Below, in pieces: positions 44,085 through 56,435 of a stretch of 58,034 nucleotides of DNA. The position numbers were made by a program, and so were the translations under genes. How positions within the stretch are numbered: position 1 is the first letter of the stretch; the number at the start of each line of letters is the position of its first letter. The notes beneath the pieces were generated by a model. The model was given only the letters and a program-made list of their open reading frames with translations. It searched no databases and was not told the origin of the DNA. The DNA is from Flavobacteriaceae bacterium (GTDB lineage Bacteria > Bacteroidota > Bacteroidia > Flavobacteriales > Flavobacteriaceae): contig NZIQ01000031.1 in assembly GCA_002691685.1 (NCBI GenBank), forward strand, positions 1-58,034, read 5' to 3'.

Positions 44085-44140
44085 GATTTTATTATTGTTG
44101 TAGACAGTGATATGACTAAAACCTATTAACTTAATTCATC

Positions 44141-44833
44141 ATGAAACAAATCTTCTTTACTTTTCTATTGTCATTTCAATTTTTGTTGAGTCAAGCTCAA
44201 ATTGAAGGAGCTTGGGAATATCAGAACCCATCAGATCAAACCGAAACACTAGTGTTTGTCAACGGGTACTTTTCTCATTCCACATTCTCAACGGCTAACG
44301 GCGAGTTTATAGCCACACATGGAGGCCGTGTTTCAGAAACTAAAAAACAGTTGTCATTTACCCTAGAATTTGATACTGAACACAAAGAAAATGTGGGTAA
44401 AACTGTCGATTTAAATTACCGTATCAAGTCCAAAAGAAAATTATACATTGGTGATAAAATATATGTGCGTACAGATAATGGAACTGAAGGTGATCTCAAT
44501 GGTGCCTGGCTTATGTCTGGTCGAAAAAGAGAGGGGAAAATTCAAATAAGATCCACTGATGGGCCTCGTAAAACCATGAAAATATTATCAGGAAAGCGCT
44601 TTCAATGGATTGCGTACAATACGGCAACAGGTGATTTTTTTGGAACAGGTGGAGGTTCGTATACAACAATTGATGGTAATTATACAGAAAACATTGAATT
44701 CTTCTCGAGAGACAACAGTCGCGTAGGAGCAGCATTGACTTTTGACTATGAGTTGATTGATAATAATTGGCACCATTCAGGCTTTAGTAGCAAAGGAGCT
44801 CCACTCTATGAAATATGGAGTCAAAGAGAGTAG
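44141..44833 (+). CDS. hypothetical secreted protein
   Basis: Signal peptide MKQIFFTFLLSFQFLLSQAQ; two repeated GAW-type segments. Confidence 0.65.
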   Translation: MKQIFFTFLLSFQFLLSQAQIEGAWEYQNPSDQTETLVFVNGYFSHSTFSTANGEFIATHGGRVSETKKQLSFTLEFDTEHKENVGKTVDLNYRIKSKRKLYIGDKIYVRTDNGTEGDLNGAWLMSGRKREGKIQIRSTDGPRKTMKILSGKRFQWIAYNTATGDFFGTGGGSYTTIDGNYTENIEFFSRDNSRVGAALTFDYELIDNNWHHSGFSSKGAPLYEIWSQRE

Positions 44834-45787
44834 CTAAAACTCTTTGAGATACCGTTCGACGTTTTTCTGAATTCGTTCAGTTAGATTTTTAACGGATGAC
44901 TTGACAAAAGTTTTACCTGTTATAGCCTCGTATAGTTCGATGTAACGCTGAGATATGCTTGATATATAACTCTCTGACATTTTAGGTAATTGCTGACCTA
45001 GTTTACCTTGAAATCCATTCTCAATTAACCATCGTCTAACAAACTCCTTGGAGAGTTGTTTTTGAGGCATCCGCTTTTCTTGTAATTCTTGATACGTATC
45101 TGCGTAGAAATACCTTGAAGAATCAGGGGTGTGTACCTCATCGATTAATAGAATTTCTCCAGCTTTAGTTTTACCAAATTCATATTTGGTATCCACAAGT
45201 AACAACCCTTGTTTGGCGGCAATTTCTGTCCCTCTTTCGAACAAAGCATAAGTATATTTTTCTAATAGAGCGTAGTCCGATGCAGATACAATTCCTTTTT
45301 TAAGGATTTCTTCTTTTGAAATATCTTCATCGTGATCTCCCTTTTCTGCCTTGGTCGCAGGTGTAATTATTGGATGATCAAACTTCTCATTTTCTATCAT
45401 CCCCTCTTTTAAGGGAATTCCGCATAAAACTCTTTTTCCAGCATGGTACTCTCGAGCTGCATGACCCACTAAATAAGCTCTAATGACCATTTCCACCTTG
45501 TAAGGTGTACATGCTTTTCCAATAGAAACATTAGGGTCAGGAGAGGCTAAAAACCAATTTGGGACAATATCACTTGTCTCTTTTAGCATCTGGGTTGCAA
45601 TTTGATTTAAAATTTGCCCTTTGAACGGAATTCCCTTTGGCATCACAACATCAAATGCAGATAAACGATCTGTAGCTACCATTACCATGATATCATTTTC
45701 TAAAGTGTAAACCTCTCTAACCTTTCCCCTGTAAACTGATTTTTGTCCAGGAAAATGAAAATCAGTGGACATAACTGTATTCGACAT
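44834..45787 (-). CDS. purC: phosphoribosylaminoimidazole-succinocarboxamide synthase
   Basis: [46 protein letters not shown]. Confidence 0.95.
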
Positions 45788-45791
45788 AATT

Positions 45792-46748
45792 TCAATTTTG
45801 ATGTTCTAGACCCTTATAGGCTTCAATAACTTTTTTTACAAGTCTGTGACGTATCACGTCTTTATCATCCAAGTATATTAATCCTATTCCTTCGACTTTA
45901 TTCAATATCAAAAGTGCCTCTTTTAGACCAGATATTACCCGTCTTGGCAAATCTATTTGACCTGGATCACCCGTAATAAGGAATTTAGCATTCTTACCCA
46001 TACGAGTTAAAAACATTTTCATTTGAGCGTGAGTGGTATTTTGAGCCTCATCTAAAATGACAAATGCATTATCTAGTGTTCTTCCTCTCATAAAGGCCAT
46101 AGGTGCAATTTGTATGATACCGTTCTCAATATGACTTGCCAATTTCTCAGCTGGAATCATGTCTCTTAAGGCATCGTATAGAGGTTGCATGTAAGGATCG
46201 AGTTTTTCTTTTAAATCACCAGGCAGAAAACCTAAATTCTCGCCAGCCTCCACAGCTGGTCTAGTTAATATAATTCGCTTAACTTCTTTGTCTTTCAAGG
46301 CCTTGACTGCTAACGCAACGCCTGTGTAGGTTTTACCGGTACCCGCAGGACCTATGGCAAAGACCATGTCATTTTTTGAACAACTATCTACAAGGCGTTT
46401 TTGATTTAAAGTTCTCGCTTTAATTGGTTTACCATTGACTCCATGTACAAGGAGCTCAGATTCTATAGCATTTAAACTTTCAGCTTCTTTGTTAGATGCA
46501 GAACTTAAAATACGTTCGATACTATTTTCATCAAGCTTATTAAATTTTGCGAAATGAGCGGTTAACATGTCAAACCTCAAATCAAATTCTTCTAAAACTT
46601 CTTCATCGCCAAAGGCTTTGAGTTTATTGCCTCTGACAACGATTTTTAGTTTTGGAAAATATCTTTTTAAAAGTTCTGTAGTCTCGTTCTGCAATCCAAA
46701 AAAATCTCTTGCATTGATATCGGTGAGTTCAATTATGAGTTCGTTCAA
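45792..46748 (-). CDS. phoH: PhoH family ATPase
   Basis: [72 protein letters not shown]. Confidence 0.95.
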
Positions 46749-46827
46749 AATTTCTTTTACTAATTTTATATCACAAACTTAGTTTTTTTTCCATTTTTAC
46801 TCATAAAAAAACTATTAAAAACCCCAT

Positions 46828-47652
46828 ATGTCCTTGATAACGCTTACTACAGATTATGGCATCAAAGATCATTTTGTGGCGAGCTTAAAAGGGGTCTTAT
46901 TAAAGTACAATCCAAATACACAAATTGTTGATATATCCCATAAAATCAATCAATATGACACCTTAATGGCTTCTTACATTGTAAAGAGTTGTTATCAAGA
47001 CTTTCCTGAACTCACAGTGCACCTCGTTGCTGTTGATTCCAGTACAAATAGCGAAGAGCCTCATATCGCCGTTTATGCCGACAGACATTTTTTCATCTGT
47101 CCAAACAAAGGATTCATCTCTCAGGTCTTCAGACTGGATCAAATAGAGTCTGTTGTATATATCAACGCAGTGTCGGAAGACTACGAATCCTTTCAGGCTA
47201 AATCCATACTTTCAAAAGCTGCAATTCATTTGTCAAATGGAGGAGCTATAGAGCTCTTAGGAAACCCGGTTGAGGATATTTTTGAAATCAAAACACAGCG
47301 TGTCTATTTTGATGATGCCAATAACAAATTAACTGGACATTTCATTTATATAGATCATTACGGAAATATGGTAACAAATATCAAACGTATTGATTTTAAT
47401 GCTCGAAGAAAAAATAGAGATTTCAGTATTGACTTTGGCAAGACAAGTATTTCTAGAATATACAATTCGTATGATCATTTTAATAGAGAATACAAAAAAA
47501 CAAATGATGCGAGCGGTGAAGTTTTTGCTTTATTTAATTCTTCTGGTTTTCTAGAAATAGGTTTGTACAAATCAAACCCGAAAACAATAGGGAGCGCCTC
47601 AACCCTCTTTGGTCTAAACGTTTTTGATTTAATTTCTGTACAATTTCATTGA
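46828..47652 (+). CDS. SAM hydrolase / SAM-dependent halogenase family (DUF62)
   Basis: ITLTTDYGIKDHFVASLKGVLL, FIYIDHYGNMVTNI. Confidence 0.9.
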   Translation: MSLITLTTDYGIKDHFVASLKGVLLKYNPNTQIVDISHKINQYDTLMASYIVKSCYQDFPELTVHLVAVDSSTNSEEPHIAVYADRHFFICPNKGFISQVFRLDQIESVVYINAVSEDYESFQAKSILSKAAIHLSNGGAIELLGNPVEDIFEIKTQRVYFDDANNKLTGHFIYIDHYGNMVTNIKRIDFNARRKNRDFSIDFGKTSISRIYNSYDHFNREYKKTNDASGEVFALFNSSGFLEIGLYKSNPKTIGSASTLFGLNVFDLISVQFH

Positions 47653-48228
47653 TGAATCGAATTTTCTATTTGTATCTGCATGAATTGAAAAAGATGCTCT
47701 TAAAGTCATCTGTTGTCGTTAGTGTAGTTTCTTTTTGGCTTTTAAACAGTTTGTTTATATGGATATTAAATTCTTCATCAAATCTGACAAATCAGCTTGA
47801 GGCTGATATTAAACCTACTTTTTTACAAGTGCAATACTGCTTACCATCTTATCGTGTTTGTTAGCTAATCTAAGTCTGTTTGAAGAAAAACGTTACCAAA
47901 CTTCAATGTTGCAGGCATTCAGTCCTTTTTCTTCATCTCAATATCTAGGCGTAAAATTTGCACTACTCAAAACGCTTCTCTTTATCAGCATAACTCCAAG
48001 TTTTATGCATTTCTACTTGTTGGAATCAATCTCAAGTGATTCTTTGGAAATTGGTGTTTTTTTAAATTAGTTTTTGCTGTTGTGGCTTTATATATTGGTA
48101 ATTGCGGCTATGGCACTATTTCTAAGTGCTTCTAATAAGAGTCTTGTGGTTGGATTACTGCTTAGCCTACTATGTGGCTTTTCGCTTTTCTATGGATTTG
48201 AATTTTTGGGAAATCATACCTGCTAAAA
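47649..48228 (+). pseudogene. gldF: decayed gliding-motility ABC transporter permease gldF
   Basis: Fragments in successive frames: MNRIFYLYLHELKKMLLKSSVVVSVVSFWLLNSLFIWIL...; frame-shifted TYFFTSAILLTILSCLLANLSLFEEKRYQTSMLQAFSPFSSSQYLGVKFALLKTLLFISITPS; then WLYILVIAAMALFLSASNKSLVVGLLLSLLCGFSLFYGFEFL after a stop; EEKR motif and position before dnaN fit GldF. Confidence 0.7.
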
Positions 48229-48391
48229 CTAAAATCAAAAATCAAAAAACTCGTAGTAATTCAACATGAAAATATCAAAAAGGTTTCTCACCGCTTTTTT
48301 TATTGGAGTTTTTTAATTCCTAGCATTTTGTTTGCGTCAATCATTGCACTCTTGTATTGGGTCAGAAGAAAAAAATATGCAAGCTTGTGAT
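48220..48391 (+). pseudogene. gldG: 3'-end remnant of gldG
   Basis: Open frame ..LKLKSKIKKLVVIQHENIKKVSHRFFYWSFLIPSILFASIIALLYWVRRKKYASL*: C-terminal TM followed by basic tail, as in GldG; rest of gene absent. Confidence 0.5.
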
Positions 48392-48444
48392 AAGTGTTGA
48401 TAAGTAATTTTTTAAAACCTACTGTATTAAAATATATTTGTTAG

Positions 48445-49566
48445 ATGATGAAATTTATTATATCGAGTTCATACCTTTTGAAGCATTTACAAATGCTTGG
48501 AGGTGTCATTAATTCAAACAACACTCTGCCTATTCTCGACAATTTTTTATTCGATTTAGATGAGGGAAGTTTAAAGATTACAGCTAGTGATTTAGAAACT
48601 ACAATTTCAGCAGAGCTATCGGTTGATTCTACTGACAAAGGTCTAATTGCAATTCCAGCAAAATTATTGCTTGATATCCTCAAAACCTTTGCCGATCAGC
48701 CTCTGACTTTCGTTGTAGAAGAAAACAATACAGTTGAAATCAATGCCTCAAATGGTAAATATGCATTGGCCTATGCTAATGGCGATGATTTTCCAAACGC
48801 TATAAGTTTATCCGATGCCTCTAGAACGACCATCCTAGGAGATGTCTTGGCCACTGCCATTTCAAAAACAATCTTCGCCGCAGGTAATGACGATTTGAGA
48901 CCCGTCATGAGTGGTGTGTTTTTTCAATTATCACCAGCCCATTTTACTTTTGTAGCTACTGATGCACACAAATTGGTAAAATACGAGCGTTCTGATTTGA
49001 GTTCTGATAGTGAGGCAGAATTTATAATGCCTAAAAAACCTTTGAACCTACTGAAAGGAATTCTCGCAGGATCAGAATCTGAAGTACACCTTTCCTACAC
49101 TGAAAATAATGCCAAATTCGCTTTTGACAATATAGAATTAATCAGTCGCCTTATCGATGGAAAATACCCAAATTACGAGGCTGTTATTCCTAAAGAAAAT
49201 CCCAACGTTTTATCTGTTTCAAGGAATCAATTTTTAGGTTCTGTGCGACGGGTTTCTATTTTCTCGAACAAAACCACACACCAAATACGTTTAAAAATGG
49301 CCGGTGCAGAAATACAGATCTCAGCTGAAGATGTCGATTTCAGTAATAAGGCCGATGAACGTCTATCTTGTCAATACGAAGGTGATGACTTGCAAATTGG
49401 TTTCAATTCTCGTTTTTTAACTGAAATGTTGAATAATCTGGGGTCTGATGAGGTATCACTTGCTATGAGTTTACCTAACAGGGCTGGAATACTGACTCCT
49501 TCAGACGGATTAGACGAAGGAGAAAACATTCTAATGTTGGTAATGCCCGTTATGCTAAACGGCTAA
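48445..49566 (+). CDS. dnaN: DNA polymerase III subunit beta
   Basis: GGVINSNNTLPILDNFLF, DLETTISAEL, ATDAHKLVKYER, LVMPVMLNG. Confidence 0.95.
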   Translation: MMKFIISSSYLLKHLQMLGGVINSNNTLPILDNFLFDLDEGSLKITASDLETTISAELSVDSTDKGLIAIPAKLLLDILKTFADQPLTFVVEENNTVEINASNGKYALAYANGDDFPNAISLSDASRTTILGDVLATAISKTIFAAGNDDLRPVMSGVFFQLSPAHFTFVATDAHKLVKYERSDLSSDSEAEFIMPKKPLNLLKGILAGSESEVHLSYTENNAKFAFDNIELISRLIDGKYPNYEAVIPKENPNVLSVSRNQFLGSVRRVSIFSNKTTHQIRLKMAGAEIQISAEDVDFSNKADERLSCQYEGDDLQIGFNSRFLTEMLNNLGSDEVSLAMSLPNRAGILTPSDGLDEGENILMLVMPVMLNG

Positions 49567-49572
49567 ATTTAA

Positions 49573-50958
49573 ATGTTATCTCAGGGTATAATTATTGCGA
49601 GGGCTACTGCTGCAGGAACAAGTGCCATTGCGGTTATTCGCCTCTCAGGTGCTGGTAGTATTTCGCTTGTCAGTCGTTTTTTTTCGCCTTTAAGCAAGAG
49701 GAACATTGAGGATTGCGAATCACATACCTTACATTTAGGTCATCTTTATAAAAAAGATGAGCAACAGCCTTTAGACGAGGTTTTGGTTGGTCTATTCAAA
49801 GCACCGAAATCATACACTGGAGAAGAGGTCGTAGAAATATCCTGTCATGGGTCAAATTACATTCAGCAAGAAATTCTTCAACTTTTTTTAAAGACCAAAG
49901 AATGCAGAATGGCAGAAGCAGGAGAATTTACACTGCGTGCCTTTCTGAACGGTAAGATGGGCCTAGACCAAGCTGAGGCTGTGGCCGACCTAATTGCAAG
50001 CGAAAATGAAGCCTCCCATCGCATTGCCATGAGTCAAATGCGAGGTGGCTTTCACTATCAAATCAATGACCTGAGAAAGGAGCTTATTGAGTTTGCCTCT
50101 CTCATCGAACTTGAATTGGATTTTTCAACAGAAGACGTGGCCTTTGCCGATCGCACGCAACTGCATAATCTTTTAGAAAAGTTAAAAACAAGTATTCGTA
50201 GTCTATTGGACTCTTTTGCACTGGGTAATGTGCTCAAAAATGGAGTTCCTATCGCTATTGTAGGTGCACCAAACGTTGGCAAATCGACCCTTCTCAATGC
50301 ATTACTCAATGAAGAAAGGGCTATTGTCAGTTCCATAGCAGGAACAACCAGAGATACTATTGAAGACGAAATAAGTATTGACGGTATTCGATTCCGATTT
50401 ATTGACACGGCCGGAATTCGTCAAACTTCAGATGAGATTGAACAAATCGGTATTCACAAAACCTTTGAGAAAATGCAGCAGGCCTCTCTAGTACTATATC
50501 TACTTGAGGCAAAAGACTATAACATAGCAAAAAAAGAAGAAATTCATGCGTTTTGCGAAACACAACATATTGACCCTGAAAATGTACTCGTTGTGTTGAA
50601 CAAAATTGATATCCACAAACCCGTAGTAACGCAAATCAATAAGGAATCTACTCTTTTTATTTCAGCTCAAAATGGTGAAGGGATTGATATTCTGAGAAAT
50701 AAACTCAGTTCACTAGTTCAATTGGGGAACCTAAATCACACAGATGTTGTTGTTTCAAATAGTCGTCATTTTAATGCATTAAATGCTTCATTAACTGCCA
50801 TTTTAAATGTTCAGGAAGGCTTAACTAATGAACTAAGCGGCGATTTAATGGCTATCGATCTTAGAGAGGCCATCTACCACCTAGGTGAAATAACAGGTAG
50901 CGTAACTACAGATGATTTGCTCGGAAGTATTTTTTCTAACTTCTGTATTGGAAAGTAA
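49573..50958 (+). CDS. mnmE: tRNA uridine-5-carboxymethylaminomethyl(34) synthesis GTPase
   Basis: GAPNVGKSTLLNALLNEERAIVSSIAGTTRDTIED; C-terminal IFSNFCIGK. Confidence 0.97.
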   Translation: MLSQGIIIARATAAGTSAIAVIRLSGAGSISLVSRFFSPLSKRNIEDCESHTLHLGHLYKKDEQQPLDEVLVGLFKAPKSYTGEEVVEISCHGSNYIQQEILQLFLKTKECRMAEAGEFTLRAFLNGKMGLDQAEAVADLIASENEASHRIAMSQMRGGFHYQINDLRKELIEFASLIELELDFSTEDVAFADRTQLHNLLEKLKTSIRSLLDSFALGNVLKNGVPIAIVGAPNVGKSTLLNALLNEERAIVSSIAGTTRDTIEDEISIDGIRFRFIDTAGIRQTSDEIEQIGIHKTFEKMQQASLVLYLLEAKDYNIAKKEEIHAFCETQHIDPENVLVVLNKIDIHKPVVTQINKESTLFISAQNGEGIDILRNKLSSLVQLGNLNHTDVVVSNSRHFNALNASLTAILNVQEGLTNELSGDLMAIDLREAIYHLGEITGSVTTDDLLGSIFSNFCIGK

Positions 50959-51080
50959 GTATAGGTTTCATGGAGTTTCAATTACCTTCTTAACTCCTAT
51001 AATATATAAGTTTAAACAAGTTTCTAAAGGCTTCACATTATTTATCGTATGATTTATTTTACGACAAAAATTACGACATA

Positions 51081-52270
51081 ATGGACGCCAAATTAATACA
51101 AGGACTACAGGGTAAACCAAAGTCAATTAAGCTATACGAACCAATAATAAAAATGAATCGTGGTTACGTTATGCGTTTCTATTATGGTTATGATAGTGAT
51201 ACCAAGAAAACTCATAAGAAAGACGTATATCTTGATCTTGATTATTATTTCACTCCATCTAATGCCTGGGAACGTTCGCAAAACAAGGAGGATAAAAAAC
51301 AAGCTAATCAAATTTTGGAGGCACTTAATACAGCTAACAGGGAAGGAAAGTATCCAATTGCAAAAACAAATCCATTATCAGTATCAGAACATAACTTCAT
51401 AGATTGGTTATTAAAGGCTACGCAGGAAGATGGAAAGTATTCTGACAATACTAAAAAATCTTACAAGGCATTGATTAACCATTTAAAGAAGTTTGCAGGT
51501 AATCACATACCTTTTGAAACAATAGATAAATCCTTTGTAGCAAAGTTCTATGACCATCCTAAATATGACTCTGTAAACTCAAAGGTAATATCTACCTCAT
51601 CAAATTCTTCTATTAAATACCATAAACAGTTTTATTTTCATTTAGCCAAAGCCTCTGCCCTATTCAACATTGAGCTACCTAATAATATAAAATACACACA
51701 GGATAAAACAGAATCAAAACCAAAGGAATATCTTACTACTAAAGAATTAAAAACATTAATTTCAACACCTGAACCAAACTTTACATTAAGAATGGGGTTT
51801 CTGTTTGGTTGTTTTACAGGTCTACCATTTGAAGAAATTATCCACGCTAAATTTTACGATGTTAAGGAAGATAATAAGGGAAGATACTATTTAGAATACC
51901 AAAGAAAAAAAACTCAAATTATAATAACATTCCCTTGTCAAGTAATGCATCAAAAGTAATTGACCAGATGAAGAAAGTAAATGGCAAAAGTTCTAGTCAA
52001 AGTATTTTTAAAGGATTAAAGTATTCAGGTTATAATAATAGTCTTTTACAAAATTGGGTAACCAGAGCAGGTATAACTAAGAAAATTACCCCTCATTGTT
52101 GTAGAAACACTTTCTCAGCAATTCCCTATGATAAGTACAAGGACGTCAGTGCGTTAATGAAGATTTTAGGGCATAAGGATATATCTACGACCCAACGATA
52201 CCTTGCTAAATTCCTAAAGAATATTGATGTTGATGTAGACCCACTGCCTGAATTTGATCTAGCCTTTTAA
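51081..52270 (+). pseudogene. frameshifted site-specific tyrosine recombinase
   Basis: Two overlapping ORFs (51081..51959 and 51935..52270) that together form one integrase; restored reading ..YQRKKTQIIITFP/LSSNASKVIDQMKK.., GHKDISTTQRYLAKF; box I reads FTGLPFEEI. Confidence 0.82.
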
Positions 52271-52359
52271 ATTTTGGCGACTGCGTCTGTTTTAACACTT
52301 ACAAAAACAGTTAGTTATTATTTGCTATTCTCACCCTCATCAGACTTCTTCTATTTTTG

Positions 52360-54216
52360 TTATTCTATTTCAATCGAAAGTTCCAACCATGTATTGGTTC
52401 TTTCTTCTATAGCTTCTTCAGCCAATTTTAATTCGATGGAGAGGGTTTTGATTTCCTCAGGTGACAGGTTGTCATTGGAGAACTGGTTTTGTATTGTTTC
52501 TTTTTGGGCTTCGAATTTTGCGATTTCGATCTCCAGTTTTTTGAGCCTACGTTGGTTTTCGTAGGAAGGCTTGTTTTCTTCTTTATTTTTCCAATCAGTT
52601 TTTGGTTTTTTCTCTGTTGTTTCGGTAGCCACCGAAGTATCCTCATAGGCCTTGAAATCAGAATAATTTCCCGGAAAATCTTCTATTTTACCTGCGCCTC
52701 GAAATACGAAGAGATGGTCCACGATTTTATCCATAAAATAACGATCGTGGGAAACAACAAGCAGGCATCCCGGAAAGTCCAAAAGAAAACTCTCTAACAC
52801 ATTCAGGGTAACAATGTCCAAATCATTGGTGGGTTCATCCAGAATCAAAAAATTGGGATTTTGTATAAGAACGGTACACAAATACAAACGTTTGCGCTCG
52901 CCTCCACTTAGTTTTTCTACAAAATCGTATTGCTTTTTTCGATCGAATAAAAATCGTTCCAACAGTTGTTGCGCAGAAATTTTCCGTCCTTTTTTAAGAG
53001 GGATATAGTCCCCATATTCTTGGATAACTTCAATCACTTTTTGACCTGGTTTTACTGTAATCCCTTCTTGGGTGTAATAACCAAATTTAAGGGTGTCTCC
53101 TCGGACAATTTTACCGGTATCTGGTTGCAGTGCGTTGGTCAGTAGTTTGAGGAAGGTGGATTTACCCGTACCATTATTTCCGATAATACCAATACGGTCG
53201 TTTCGCTGAAAATTATAGTCAAAAGCCTTTAGGATTACATTAGCATTAAAGGCTTTTGATACTTTGTGCATTTCTATCATTTTAGAACCCAATCGCTCCA
53301 TGTTGATTTCCAGTTGCACTTCGTGGTCATTTCTTCGTTGCTGCACTTTTTCCTTGATGGTATTGAAATCTTCTATCCGTGATTTGGATTTGGTTGTTCT
53401 CGCTTTGGGTTGCTTGCGAATCCATGCTAGTTCCTTGGAAAAATGCCGCTTGGTTTTGTGAGCCTCGGTTTCCTTTTGTTCAATGCGGGCTGCACGCTTT
53501 TCGAGATAGTAAGAATAACTCCCCTTGTAGGTGTATAAGTTTCCTTGGTCTAATTCTATAATCTCATTACACACCCGCTCGAGAAAATACCGGTCGTGGG
53601 TAACCATCAATAAGCTTATTTTTTCTTTGATAAAATAAGCTTCCAGCCATTCGATCATTTCTAAATCCAGATGGTTGGTCGGTTCGTCTAGGATCAGTAA
53701 ATCGGGCTTTTCCAAAAGGGCGCTACAGAGTGCCAAACGCTTTTTTTGTCCACCAGACAAGGATCCCGCTTTTAGTGTCAAGTCGTCCAGCTTAAGCTTG
53801 CTTAAAAGCTGTTTGTATTCGGTTTCAAAGTCCCATGCCCCGTGCTGTTCCATCGCTTCAAAGGCCTCTTGGTACTTTTTCTCATCCTCTGGGTTCAATA
53901 ATGCTTTTTCATAGGCAGCAATTATCTCCAAAGTACTGTTATCCGAAGCCAAAATAATCTCCTCTACGGTTTTTTGAGGATCTAAAATGGGCTCTTGGTG
54001 AAGGTAGGACACTTGGGTACCCTTACGGAAATTGACCAATCCGGCATCAGGAGTTTCCTCTCGGGCGATAATCCTTAAGATGGTTGTTTTCCCACTTCCA
54101 TTTTTAGCGATTAGTGCAATTTTTTGCCCTTTACTAATTCCAAAAGAGAGAGACTCAAAAATAACGTGCTCACCATAGGCCTTTGAAATGTTCTCTACCG
54201 AAAGTAGATTCATCAA
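52360..54216 (-). CDS. ABC-F family ATP-binding protein (Uup-like)
   Basis: Two ABC domains (GKNGSGKTTILRI / GNNGTGKSTFLKLL; LSGGQKKRLAL / LSGGERKRLYL) plus C-terminal coiled coil. Confidence 0.93.
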   Translation of the reverse strand: MMNLLSVENISKAYGEHVIFESLSFGISKGQKIALIAKNGSGKTTILRIIAREETPDAGLVNFRKGTQVSYLHQEPILDPQKTVEEIILASDNSTLEIIAAYEKALLNPEDEKKYQEAFEAMEQHGAWDFETEYKQLLSKLKLDDLTLKAGSLSGGQKKRLALCSALLEKPDLLILDEPTNHLDLEMIEWLEAYFIKEKISLLMVTHDRYFLERVCNEIIELDQGNLYTYKGSYSYYLEKRAARIEQKETEAHKTKRHFSKELAWIRKQPKARTTKSKSRIEDFNTIKEKVQQRRNDHEVQLEINMERLGSKMIEMHKVSKAFNANVILKAFDYNFQRNDRIGIIGNNGTGKSTFLKLLTNALQPDTGKIVRGDTLKFGYYTQEGITVKPGQKVIEVIQEYGDYIPLKKGRKISAQQLLERFLFDRKKQYDFVEKLSGGERKRLYLCTVLIQNPNFLILDEPTNDLDIVTLNVLESFLLDFPGCLLVVSHDRYFMDKIVDHLFVFRGAGKIEDFPGNYSDFKAYEDTSVATETTEKKPKTDWKNKEENKPSYENQRRLKKLEIEIAKFEAQKETIQNQFSNDNLSPEEIKTLSIELKLAEEAIEERTNTWLELSIEIE

Positions 54217-54398
54217 TATTAATTTTTATCAAAATTACGGATTCAATTCCAACAATTGAGGCATTGCCAGCGCACGTAAGGCGTGTCATTAAAAATCTCA
54301 AAGCTTCTCGTGAAGTCGTCAGAAAAAGAGCACCCAGATATTTGCTTGTAACCCTTGTAAAATATAATGATTACCAGGGTAGGGATGCAAAGAATAAC

Positions 54399-54423
54399 AC
54401 CCTTCTAGCACCCTTCTAGCACC
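54399..54423. repeat. 11-bp tandem repeat ACCCTTCTAGC x2.3
   Basis: acccttctagc acccttctagc acc. Confidence 0.9.
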
Positions 54424-55097
54424 AAACAATAATGATAATAATTTAATAGAAATAGATAGGGTCCAAGAAATTTGTCTTTCTAGTGTTAAATGGGTGGAGG
54501 CAGTTAAAAGGAATTTTCTTCTAATTAGGTTTCATATCGTTTAAATTAGTTAAAAAATCAACCTTTTGTGGAAAACTACCTCTTTGGTTGTTAATTACTT
54601 ACACGTAATTTTACTTAGTTGATTTAAATATTATATAGTTTAGCTAAACCATAAATAATAATAAAAAATTACCAGTGGTACACCTTAAGAGACTCGTAAG
54701 AAAACAAAGTCTGATTTAGATTTAATTTTATGAAACACGTGACAAAAGAGGGGCTTTCACTAGACAACATCAGGCGACTGGACTATCAAAAGTTAGAGGT
54801 TTATTTTATGAAAACGTCTATTCAAATAGATACCATCCTGATTCAATAATTGAAACGATCAATCCAATGGCAAAATTGTTTTAATGAAGGTTTCTGAGAG
54901 AAATAAAAATCATTCTCTTCCTGTTGAGCAATCTAATAGAATCAACTATTAGTTGAACAATCAGATTCAATAATATACTTTAACCTTTAGTTAAAATTAA
55001 CTCATTTGAATTTTTCTGTAAAAGGTAAATCATCTATCTGCTTTTATGAAGGAAATATATAAAGTGGAACTACGGCTATTCTAAAGAATTAGATACC

Positions 55098-56435
55098 CTA
55101 ATAAATACTTGGTTCCCACCCATTTTCATAACTACGCTTCCATGACTCCATAGCTTTGTCATTATTTAAAACACGAGCCGTTTTAGGATCAATCACAAGG
55201 GTCTCTCCTGCGTCCTGTGCCATATTACCCAAATGACATATCATTGTTGAAATGGCTGCATCTTGAATATCTGAACGAAGTGATTTATCATATCGAATTC
55301 CATCAAAGAAATTACGAACATGATCGACATCTAGACCGCTCATACCCATAGTATCAGTTGATGAGGCTGCTCCTTTATAACGTTCAAACTCAAATTTTAA
55401 AGGGTTACCCTCTAAATCAAACAGCTTATAAAACCCGCGATCCAGTTGAATTGTCCCTTTAGTTCCATATATAGTGGCTCCCCGACCGGGACGTTCTGGT
55501 TTCATAATAATTCGACTGTGCCCCGTCCATGTGATAAACTTCTCGCCAGGATAGGTAAAGGTTACCTGTTGGTTGTCGACAAACTCCCAGTCATCGTCAA
55601 ATGTGTATTTACCTCCAAAAGAAGTTACGCGCTCTGGAATATCTACACCAAGAGCCCAACGGCAAATATCAATCTCGTGTGTACCGTTATTGTGTATCTC
55701 ACCTGTTCCCCAAGTTCGAAACCAATGCCAATTGTAGGGATGAACATTATCTCTGTATTCTTCTCTGGGTGCAGGGCCCTGCCATAAATCCCAATCTAAG
55801 GTTTTTGGAACATCTATCTTTTTTCCATTCCCTATTGAGGTTCTCTTATTAGAATAGTAGGCTTCACCCTTGTAAACCTCACCAATAATTCCGTTTCTGA
55901 TGTCTTCTATAGCCATGATTGAGGTTCTAGCAGAACGTTGTTGATTACCCATTTGCACCTTTTTACCGTACTTTTTTTGAGCAGCCATCAACAGATCATT
56001 TTCATATGGATTATGACTACAGGGTTTTTCTATGTACACGTGTTTTCCTGCCTGCATAGCCATAATTGCCATTGGGGCATGCCAATGTTCAGGAGTAGCA
56101 ATAAATACTGCATCGACATCTTTATCTTCTAAGATTTTTCGAAAATCTTTTTCAACCTTTGGGATGTAACCTATATTTTCTTCACACCATTTATTGTGCT
56201 CTTCAACAATGGTGTCATCCACATCACAATTGTAGAGTACTTTCGCATTTTCAATAGCATTAATTGCAATGATATGTGCCTTAGCTCGGCTTCTAACACC
56301 AAATACCGCACAATTGATGTGGTCATTTGCTCCTAGAATATTAGAATGAAAGATATTGGAAAAAGCTGGGGTTGAAACTCCCAGCCCTATACTTCCAGCT
56401 ACGGTATTTTTTATAAAATTTCGTCTTGTTCCCAT
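55098..56435 (-). CDS. Gfo/Idh/MocA family oxidoreductase with Tat-like signal
   Basis: MGTRRNFIKNTVAGSIGLG; IATPEHWHAPMAIMAMQAGKHVYIEKPCSHN. Confidence 0.9.
   Translation of the reverse strand: MGTRRNFIKNTVAGSIGLGVSTPAFSNIFHSNILGANDHINCAVFGVRSRAKAHIIAINAIENAKVLYNCDVDDTIVEEHNKWCEENIGYIPKVEKDFRKILEDKDVDAVFIATPEHWHAPMAIMAMQAGKHVYIEKPCSHNPYENDLLMAAQKKYGKKVQMGNQQRSARTSIMAIEDIRNGIIGEVYKGEAYYSNKRTSIGNGKKIDVPKTLDWDLWQGPAPREEYRDNVHPYNWHWFRTWGTGEIHNNGTHEIDICRWALGVDIPERVTSFGGKYTFDDDWEFVDNQQVTFTYPGEKFITWTGHSRIIMKPERPGRGATIYGTKGTIQLDRGFYKLFDLEGNPLKFEFERYKGAASSTDTMGMSGLDVDHVRNFFDGIRYDKSLRSDIQDAAISTMICHLGNMAQDAGETLVIDPKTARVLNNDKAMESWKRSYENGWEPSIY

Follow-up and report, generated by a model that had tools for sequence, protein, structure and literature searches.

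A fused gldF-gldG gene that was probably inactivated recently in an uncultured marine flavobacterium

In Flavobacterium johnsoniae, the ABC transporter GldAFG is required for gliding, and mutants lacking it destabilize GldJ or GldK (PMC9127263, PMC9870892, PMC8444969). The role of GldAFG is not known (PMC10202324). A passage in PMC7440613, citing McBride and Zhu 2013, gives gldFG as absent from the gliding species Cellulophaga tyrosinoxydans, C. algicola, and Maribacter sp. HTCC2170. Our search of the open-access literature surfaced no description of a gldFG pseudogene. Here, we describe a locus that, on comparison with its relatives, is very probably a fused gldF-gldG gene that three separate mutations have inactivated since the lineage diverged from a sister species. 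The intact gene would have encoded the permease and auxiliary subunits of GldAFG.

The gldF-gldG remnant and its intact orthologues

The window, the whole stretch of 58,034 nucleotides analyzed here, belongs to G000, a 2.1-Mb metagenome-assembled genome of an uncultured marine flavobacterium (92 contigs, 82.5% complete), and its gldFG locus lies on contig 63. We compared it with its two closest relatives, both of the same genus: MED604 (G002; NZIP01000012.1; gldFG locus L043) and PL36327bin_9 (G006; WTJC01000013.1; gldFG locus L044). All window features described below lie on the + strand. Upstream of the remnant is an intact gene for a SAM hydrolase/adenosyl-fluoride synthase-like protein of 274 amino acids (46828..47652; NCBIfam (R)-SAM hydrolase, E = 8e-22; 92% and 81% amino acid identity to G002 and G006, respectively), and downstream is an intact dnaN (48445..49566; 373 amino acids; TIGR00663, E = 1.8e-78, above the cut-off; 98% identity to G002). 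The fused gldF-gldG pseudogene between them, delimited by alignment with both relatives and by the GldF profile, retains 739 nt (47652..48390) of the 2,385 nt found in G002, and its start at 47652 overlaps the SAM hydrolase stop. The original prediction had placed an eroded gldF-gldG locus at 47649-48391, with an intact neighbor on each side. Both neighbors are indeed whole, as profile matches and identity to relatives show, and the fragments and the C-terminal piece lie where it put them; only the limits needed refinement. Its statement that gldFG commonly lies upstream of dnaN in Flavobacteriaceae is also supported, dnaN being next to gldG in 21 of the 30 gldG loci that we fetched from relatives.

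The pieces of the remnant follow one another in the order expected of GldF and GldG. The 5' part of gldF, in the original frame (47652..47815), matches positions 4-60 of the GldF profile (E = 0.0014); the middle part, in a shifted frame (47816..48067), matches positions 72-129 (E = 0.0097); and the part beyond an in-frame stop (48071..48214), which aligns continuously with G002, matches positions 144-187 (E = 0.027). Read through its stops, the region matches GldF with an E value of 2.3e-8 over profile positions 52-192, with one TAG and one TAA inside. The last ~60 codons and the stop of gldG follow (48217..48390), with the original 3' end kept. Compared with the intact protein of G002, the pieces show identities of 90.8% (residues 1-65), 92.8% (residues 63-201), and 93.5% (residues 741-802), values that exclude chance and identify the last piece as the C terminus of GldG, as had been proposed. 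The read-through region was the only match in a GldF profile search of the G000 genome, and a GldG profile search of the same genome found no match elsewhere. A second gldFG copy could lie in the missing 17% of the genome, but the relatives have only one.

Synteny agreed with the profile searches. In G002, gldFG is one continuous open reading frame of 794 amino acids from its ATG (L043:6097-8481), and in G006, it is one continuous frame of 793 amino acids (L044:7003-9384); both stand at the same place, between the SAM hydrolase gene and dnaN. Their GldG scores (464 and 469 bits) exceed the curated TIGR03521 cut-off, whereas their GldF scores (64.5 and 70.9 bits) fall below the curated TIGR03518 cut-off of 288.5, indicating a divergent yet recognizable branch. 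It had been argued that two intact genes would need more than 2 kb; the size was right, but here gldF and gldG form a single frame. A fused gldF-gldG frame of ~793 to 808 codons occurs in a sizeable share of Flavobacteriaceae, the rest having separate genes with a GldG of ~555 to 566 amino acids.

Elsewhere in the window, downstream of mnmE, a tyrosine recombinase is split over two frames (51081-52270, +), with a SAM-like domain at 51081-51959 (PF13102, E = 4.6e-9) and a catalytic C terminus at 51935-52270 (PF00589, E = 2.1e-11). It looks like a frameshifted integrase. The stretch that holds it (~50960-55110) differs between G000, G002, and G006.

Three lesions and the age of the decay

Alignment with the relatives located three lesions, all read from the contig sequence of one metagenome assembly. 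The first, a 1-nt deletion, shifts the frame between 47815 and 47816 (an alignment gap versus G002 at L043:6261). The second, found by codon comparison, is a nonsense substitution at 48068..48070, where the CAG of both G002 and G006 has become TAG. The third is a 1,645-bp deletion, the size of which follows from subtracting 739 nt and the single-base loss from the start-to-stop length of 2,385 nt in G002; it took the end of gldF with it and left only the last ~60 codons of gldG, so that most of gldG is gone, as the prediction had held. Its junction lies at a short imperfect repeat (GGGAAATCA / GGGAAAACA) at 48208..48216. The blastn blocks on either side (44085-48216 to L043:2531-6662 and 48192-50958 to L043:8284-11049) overlap by 25 bases because the deletion ends are alike, having the 9-bp imperfect motif GGGAAA(T/A)CA in common. 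This repeat suggests that the 1.6-kb loss may have occurred by illegitimate recombination between short imperfect repeats. Since the three lesions differ in type, separate events are needed to account for them, which agrees with the earlier call of several independent lesions.

No uninterrupted gldFG frame was found in G000. We give almost no credence to the idea that the broken pieces yield a functional short membrane protein, by recoding or as a reduced GldF. Each gldF fragment is still similar to GldF, but a frameshift, a stop, and the loss of ~70% of the coding sequence all stand in the way, and none of the open frames spans so much as the permease.

A more serious concern was that the living population has intact genes and that errors of metagenome assembly, by collapse or miscalling, produced the lesions. 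The genome is uncultured, fragmented, and incomplete, and a single-base deletion is among the lesions. A scan of genome contigs brought up G002, G006, and species farther away, and no second independent assembly of the G000 species. Against an artefact, three types of lesion fall within 740 bp, one of them a nonsense substitution, which fits the earlier argument against a single sequencing error. Repeats of 9 bp with a mismatch are too short to mislead the usual assembly graphs, and G000 carries private substitutions at the deletion junction. In addition, ~40 other syntenic genes of G000 are unbroken relative to G002, so frameshifts are not rife in the assembly, and a poor consensus does not account for the lesions. 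We therefore regard an artefact as very improbable and true inactivation as the far better explanation, within the limits set by a single 82.5% complete genome.

The decay appears to be young. Between the gldF remnant and G002, Ks is 0.12 and Ka is 0.023 (Ka/Ks of 0.19), and Ka to G006 is 0.186 for the remnant versus 0.178 for intact G002. The low Ks and the lack of any excess of amino acid change indicate that the gene was constrained until recently, with no long neutral drift. The loss thus appears to be recent, as first proposed.

gldA and the retained gliding and secretion genes

The original prediction had proposed a search of the rest of the genome for other gldF, gldG, or gldA genes. 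We found no further gldF or gldG, but gldA is present, with a likely frameshift. The best GldA match, and the only GldA-like candidate, is on contig 1 (L073, the G000 gldA locus, at L073:7217-8122). One base is missing after L073:7225, at about codon 20 and upstream of the Walker A motif; this frameshift is found in G000 only, gldA being intact in G002 and G006, with an ATG start and the same neighbors. The genes score 227 to 252 bits, below the curated cut-off, with TIGR03522 as their best match; the presence of pheA next to gldA in four of six fetched relatives supports their orthology despite these scores. The rest of G000 gldA is constrained (Ka/Ks of 0.09), and a GTG directly after the lesion could restart translation before Walker A. 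For these reasons, and with a lesion of one nucleotide, we call inactivation of gldA probable rather than certain. If gldA is indeed inactive, all three subunits of the one transporter have been hit at two distant loci, which would point to relaxed selection, in this planktonic lineage, on the transporter as a module rather than to a local accident.

A low G000-G002 identity in gldA was also considered as a sign of decay and was rejected: the similarity between G002 and G006 is unusually high in gldA and in neighboring genes. Across the region from gldA to pheA/aminotransferase (L073-L075), the G002-G006 Ks is ~0.44 versus ~1 in most other genes, suggesting that these two lineages may have recombined there.

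We then checked gldB, gldD, gldJ, gldK, gldL, gldM, gldN, and sprA. The genes gldK, gldL, gldM, and gldN form a cluster in G000 in which each is complete and scores above its cut-off, and gldB, gldD, and sprA are complete in G000, G002, and G006, so that the search for gldB-N and spr genes proposed with the original prediction found seven of them intact in G000. The secretion system has probably been kept for uses that do not depend on the transporter. None of the six gld genes in this set shows a G000-specific excess of amino acid change. The Ka/Ks of gldD between G000 and G002 is raised (0.195), but Ka to G006 is 0.086 for G000 and 0.104 for G002; the excess is on the G002 side and is not evidence for decay in G000. 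GldJ, PorV, MurF, and pyruvate dehydrogenase were not found in the G000 or G002 assemblies. We rejected loss of gldJ: a 9-kb probe over the G006 locus failed to detect any orthologue of pdh, porV, or murF in G000 or G002, so a whole gldJ-porV-murF block is missing, which indicates an assembly gap. In G006, porV and gldJ lie back to back (L072:6116-9126), with no porU between them, the place of this gene in Flavobacterium.

Repeated loss of gldFG and comparison with known systems

Eight other species of the genus, with genomes of 1.3 to 1.7 Mb, have the SAM hydrolase gene followed directly by dnaN. The interval is ~50 bp wherever it was measured and holds no remnant of gldFG. Searches of these genomes for GldB, GldD, and full-length GldJ gave no match, and GldA-like matches stayed below 190 bits. 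All eight keep a divergent SprA, and seven have PorV-like proteins; they look like bacteria that may have secretion without gliding.

These congeners raise the possibility that G000 is on its way to losing gliding altogether, beginning with the transporter, a course compatible with recent inactivation of gldFG. The eight species would be its end state, lacking gldFG and the three Gld proteins just named yet retaining SprA, and gliding is abolished in F. johnsoniae when gldA, gldF, or gldG is mutated (PMC8444969, PMC9127263). On the other side stand the intact and unaccelerated gldB, gldD, and gldK to gldN of G000 and the retention of GldJ by most family members without GldG (below). We give loss of the whole trait somewhat less than an even chance.

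To place the locus in the family, we surveyed 250 Flavobacteriaceae genomes, of which all but G000 are at least 90% complete. GldG was absent from 26, of which 6 were identified by comparing the GldG and GldJ result tables; the counts were made by hand. Full-length GldJ was kept in 22 of the 26 (E = 9e-195 or better), the exceptions being G000 (the assembly gap), G009, G010, and G194. GldG was missing from 16 of 31 genomes of at most 2.4 Mb but from only 10 of the 219 above that size (Fisher P = 1e-10, or P = 1.5e-8 when the genus of the window is excluded), P values that overstate the evidence for a link to small genomes because related genomes are not independent. The survey suggests that gldFG has been lost repeatedly in Flavobacteriaceae and that such loss is frequent and associated with small genomes. 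In genus g89, G102 lacks GldG and G280 has it, both genomes being ~100% complete; this genus is a second candidate for a recent loss within a genus.

A different reading is that the gliding and secretion machine of pelagic flavobacteria can specifically dispense with GldAFG. The genes gldA, gldF, and gldG would then be the first to go, and would go together, with selection continuing to act on the motor and lipoproteins. We consider this less likely than not. Were it correct, the requirement for GldAFG in F. johnsoniae would be lineage specific or bypassable.

The ancestral gene belongs to the same sequence families as GldF and GldG of the F. johnsoniae GldAFG transporter (TIGR03518 and TIGR03521), with gldF before gldG and dnaN adjoining in most relatives examined; it differs in that the frame was fused and is now a pseudogene. 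Like the gliding Cellulophaga and Maribacter strains, G000 misses gldFG and keeps most gliding and type IX secretion genes, in its case most of those that we checked. Since the absence of gldFG from gliding bacteria is already published, G000 is a new case and not a new kind. What is new is an apparent intermediate of decay with a close intact relative, probable codecay of gldA, and a wider count of losses. With the module intact in G002 and freshly broken in G000 and the motor present in both, the species pair offers a natural experiment on the need for the transporter. The Cellulophaga and Maribacter strains represent completed losses in cultured gliders, whereas G000 represents an intermediate, with the remnants still in place and gldA apparently broken.
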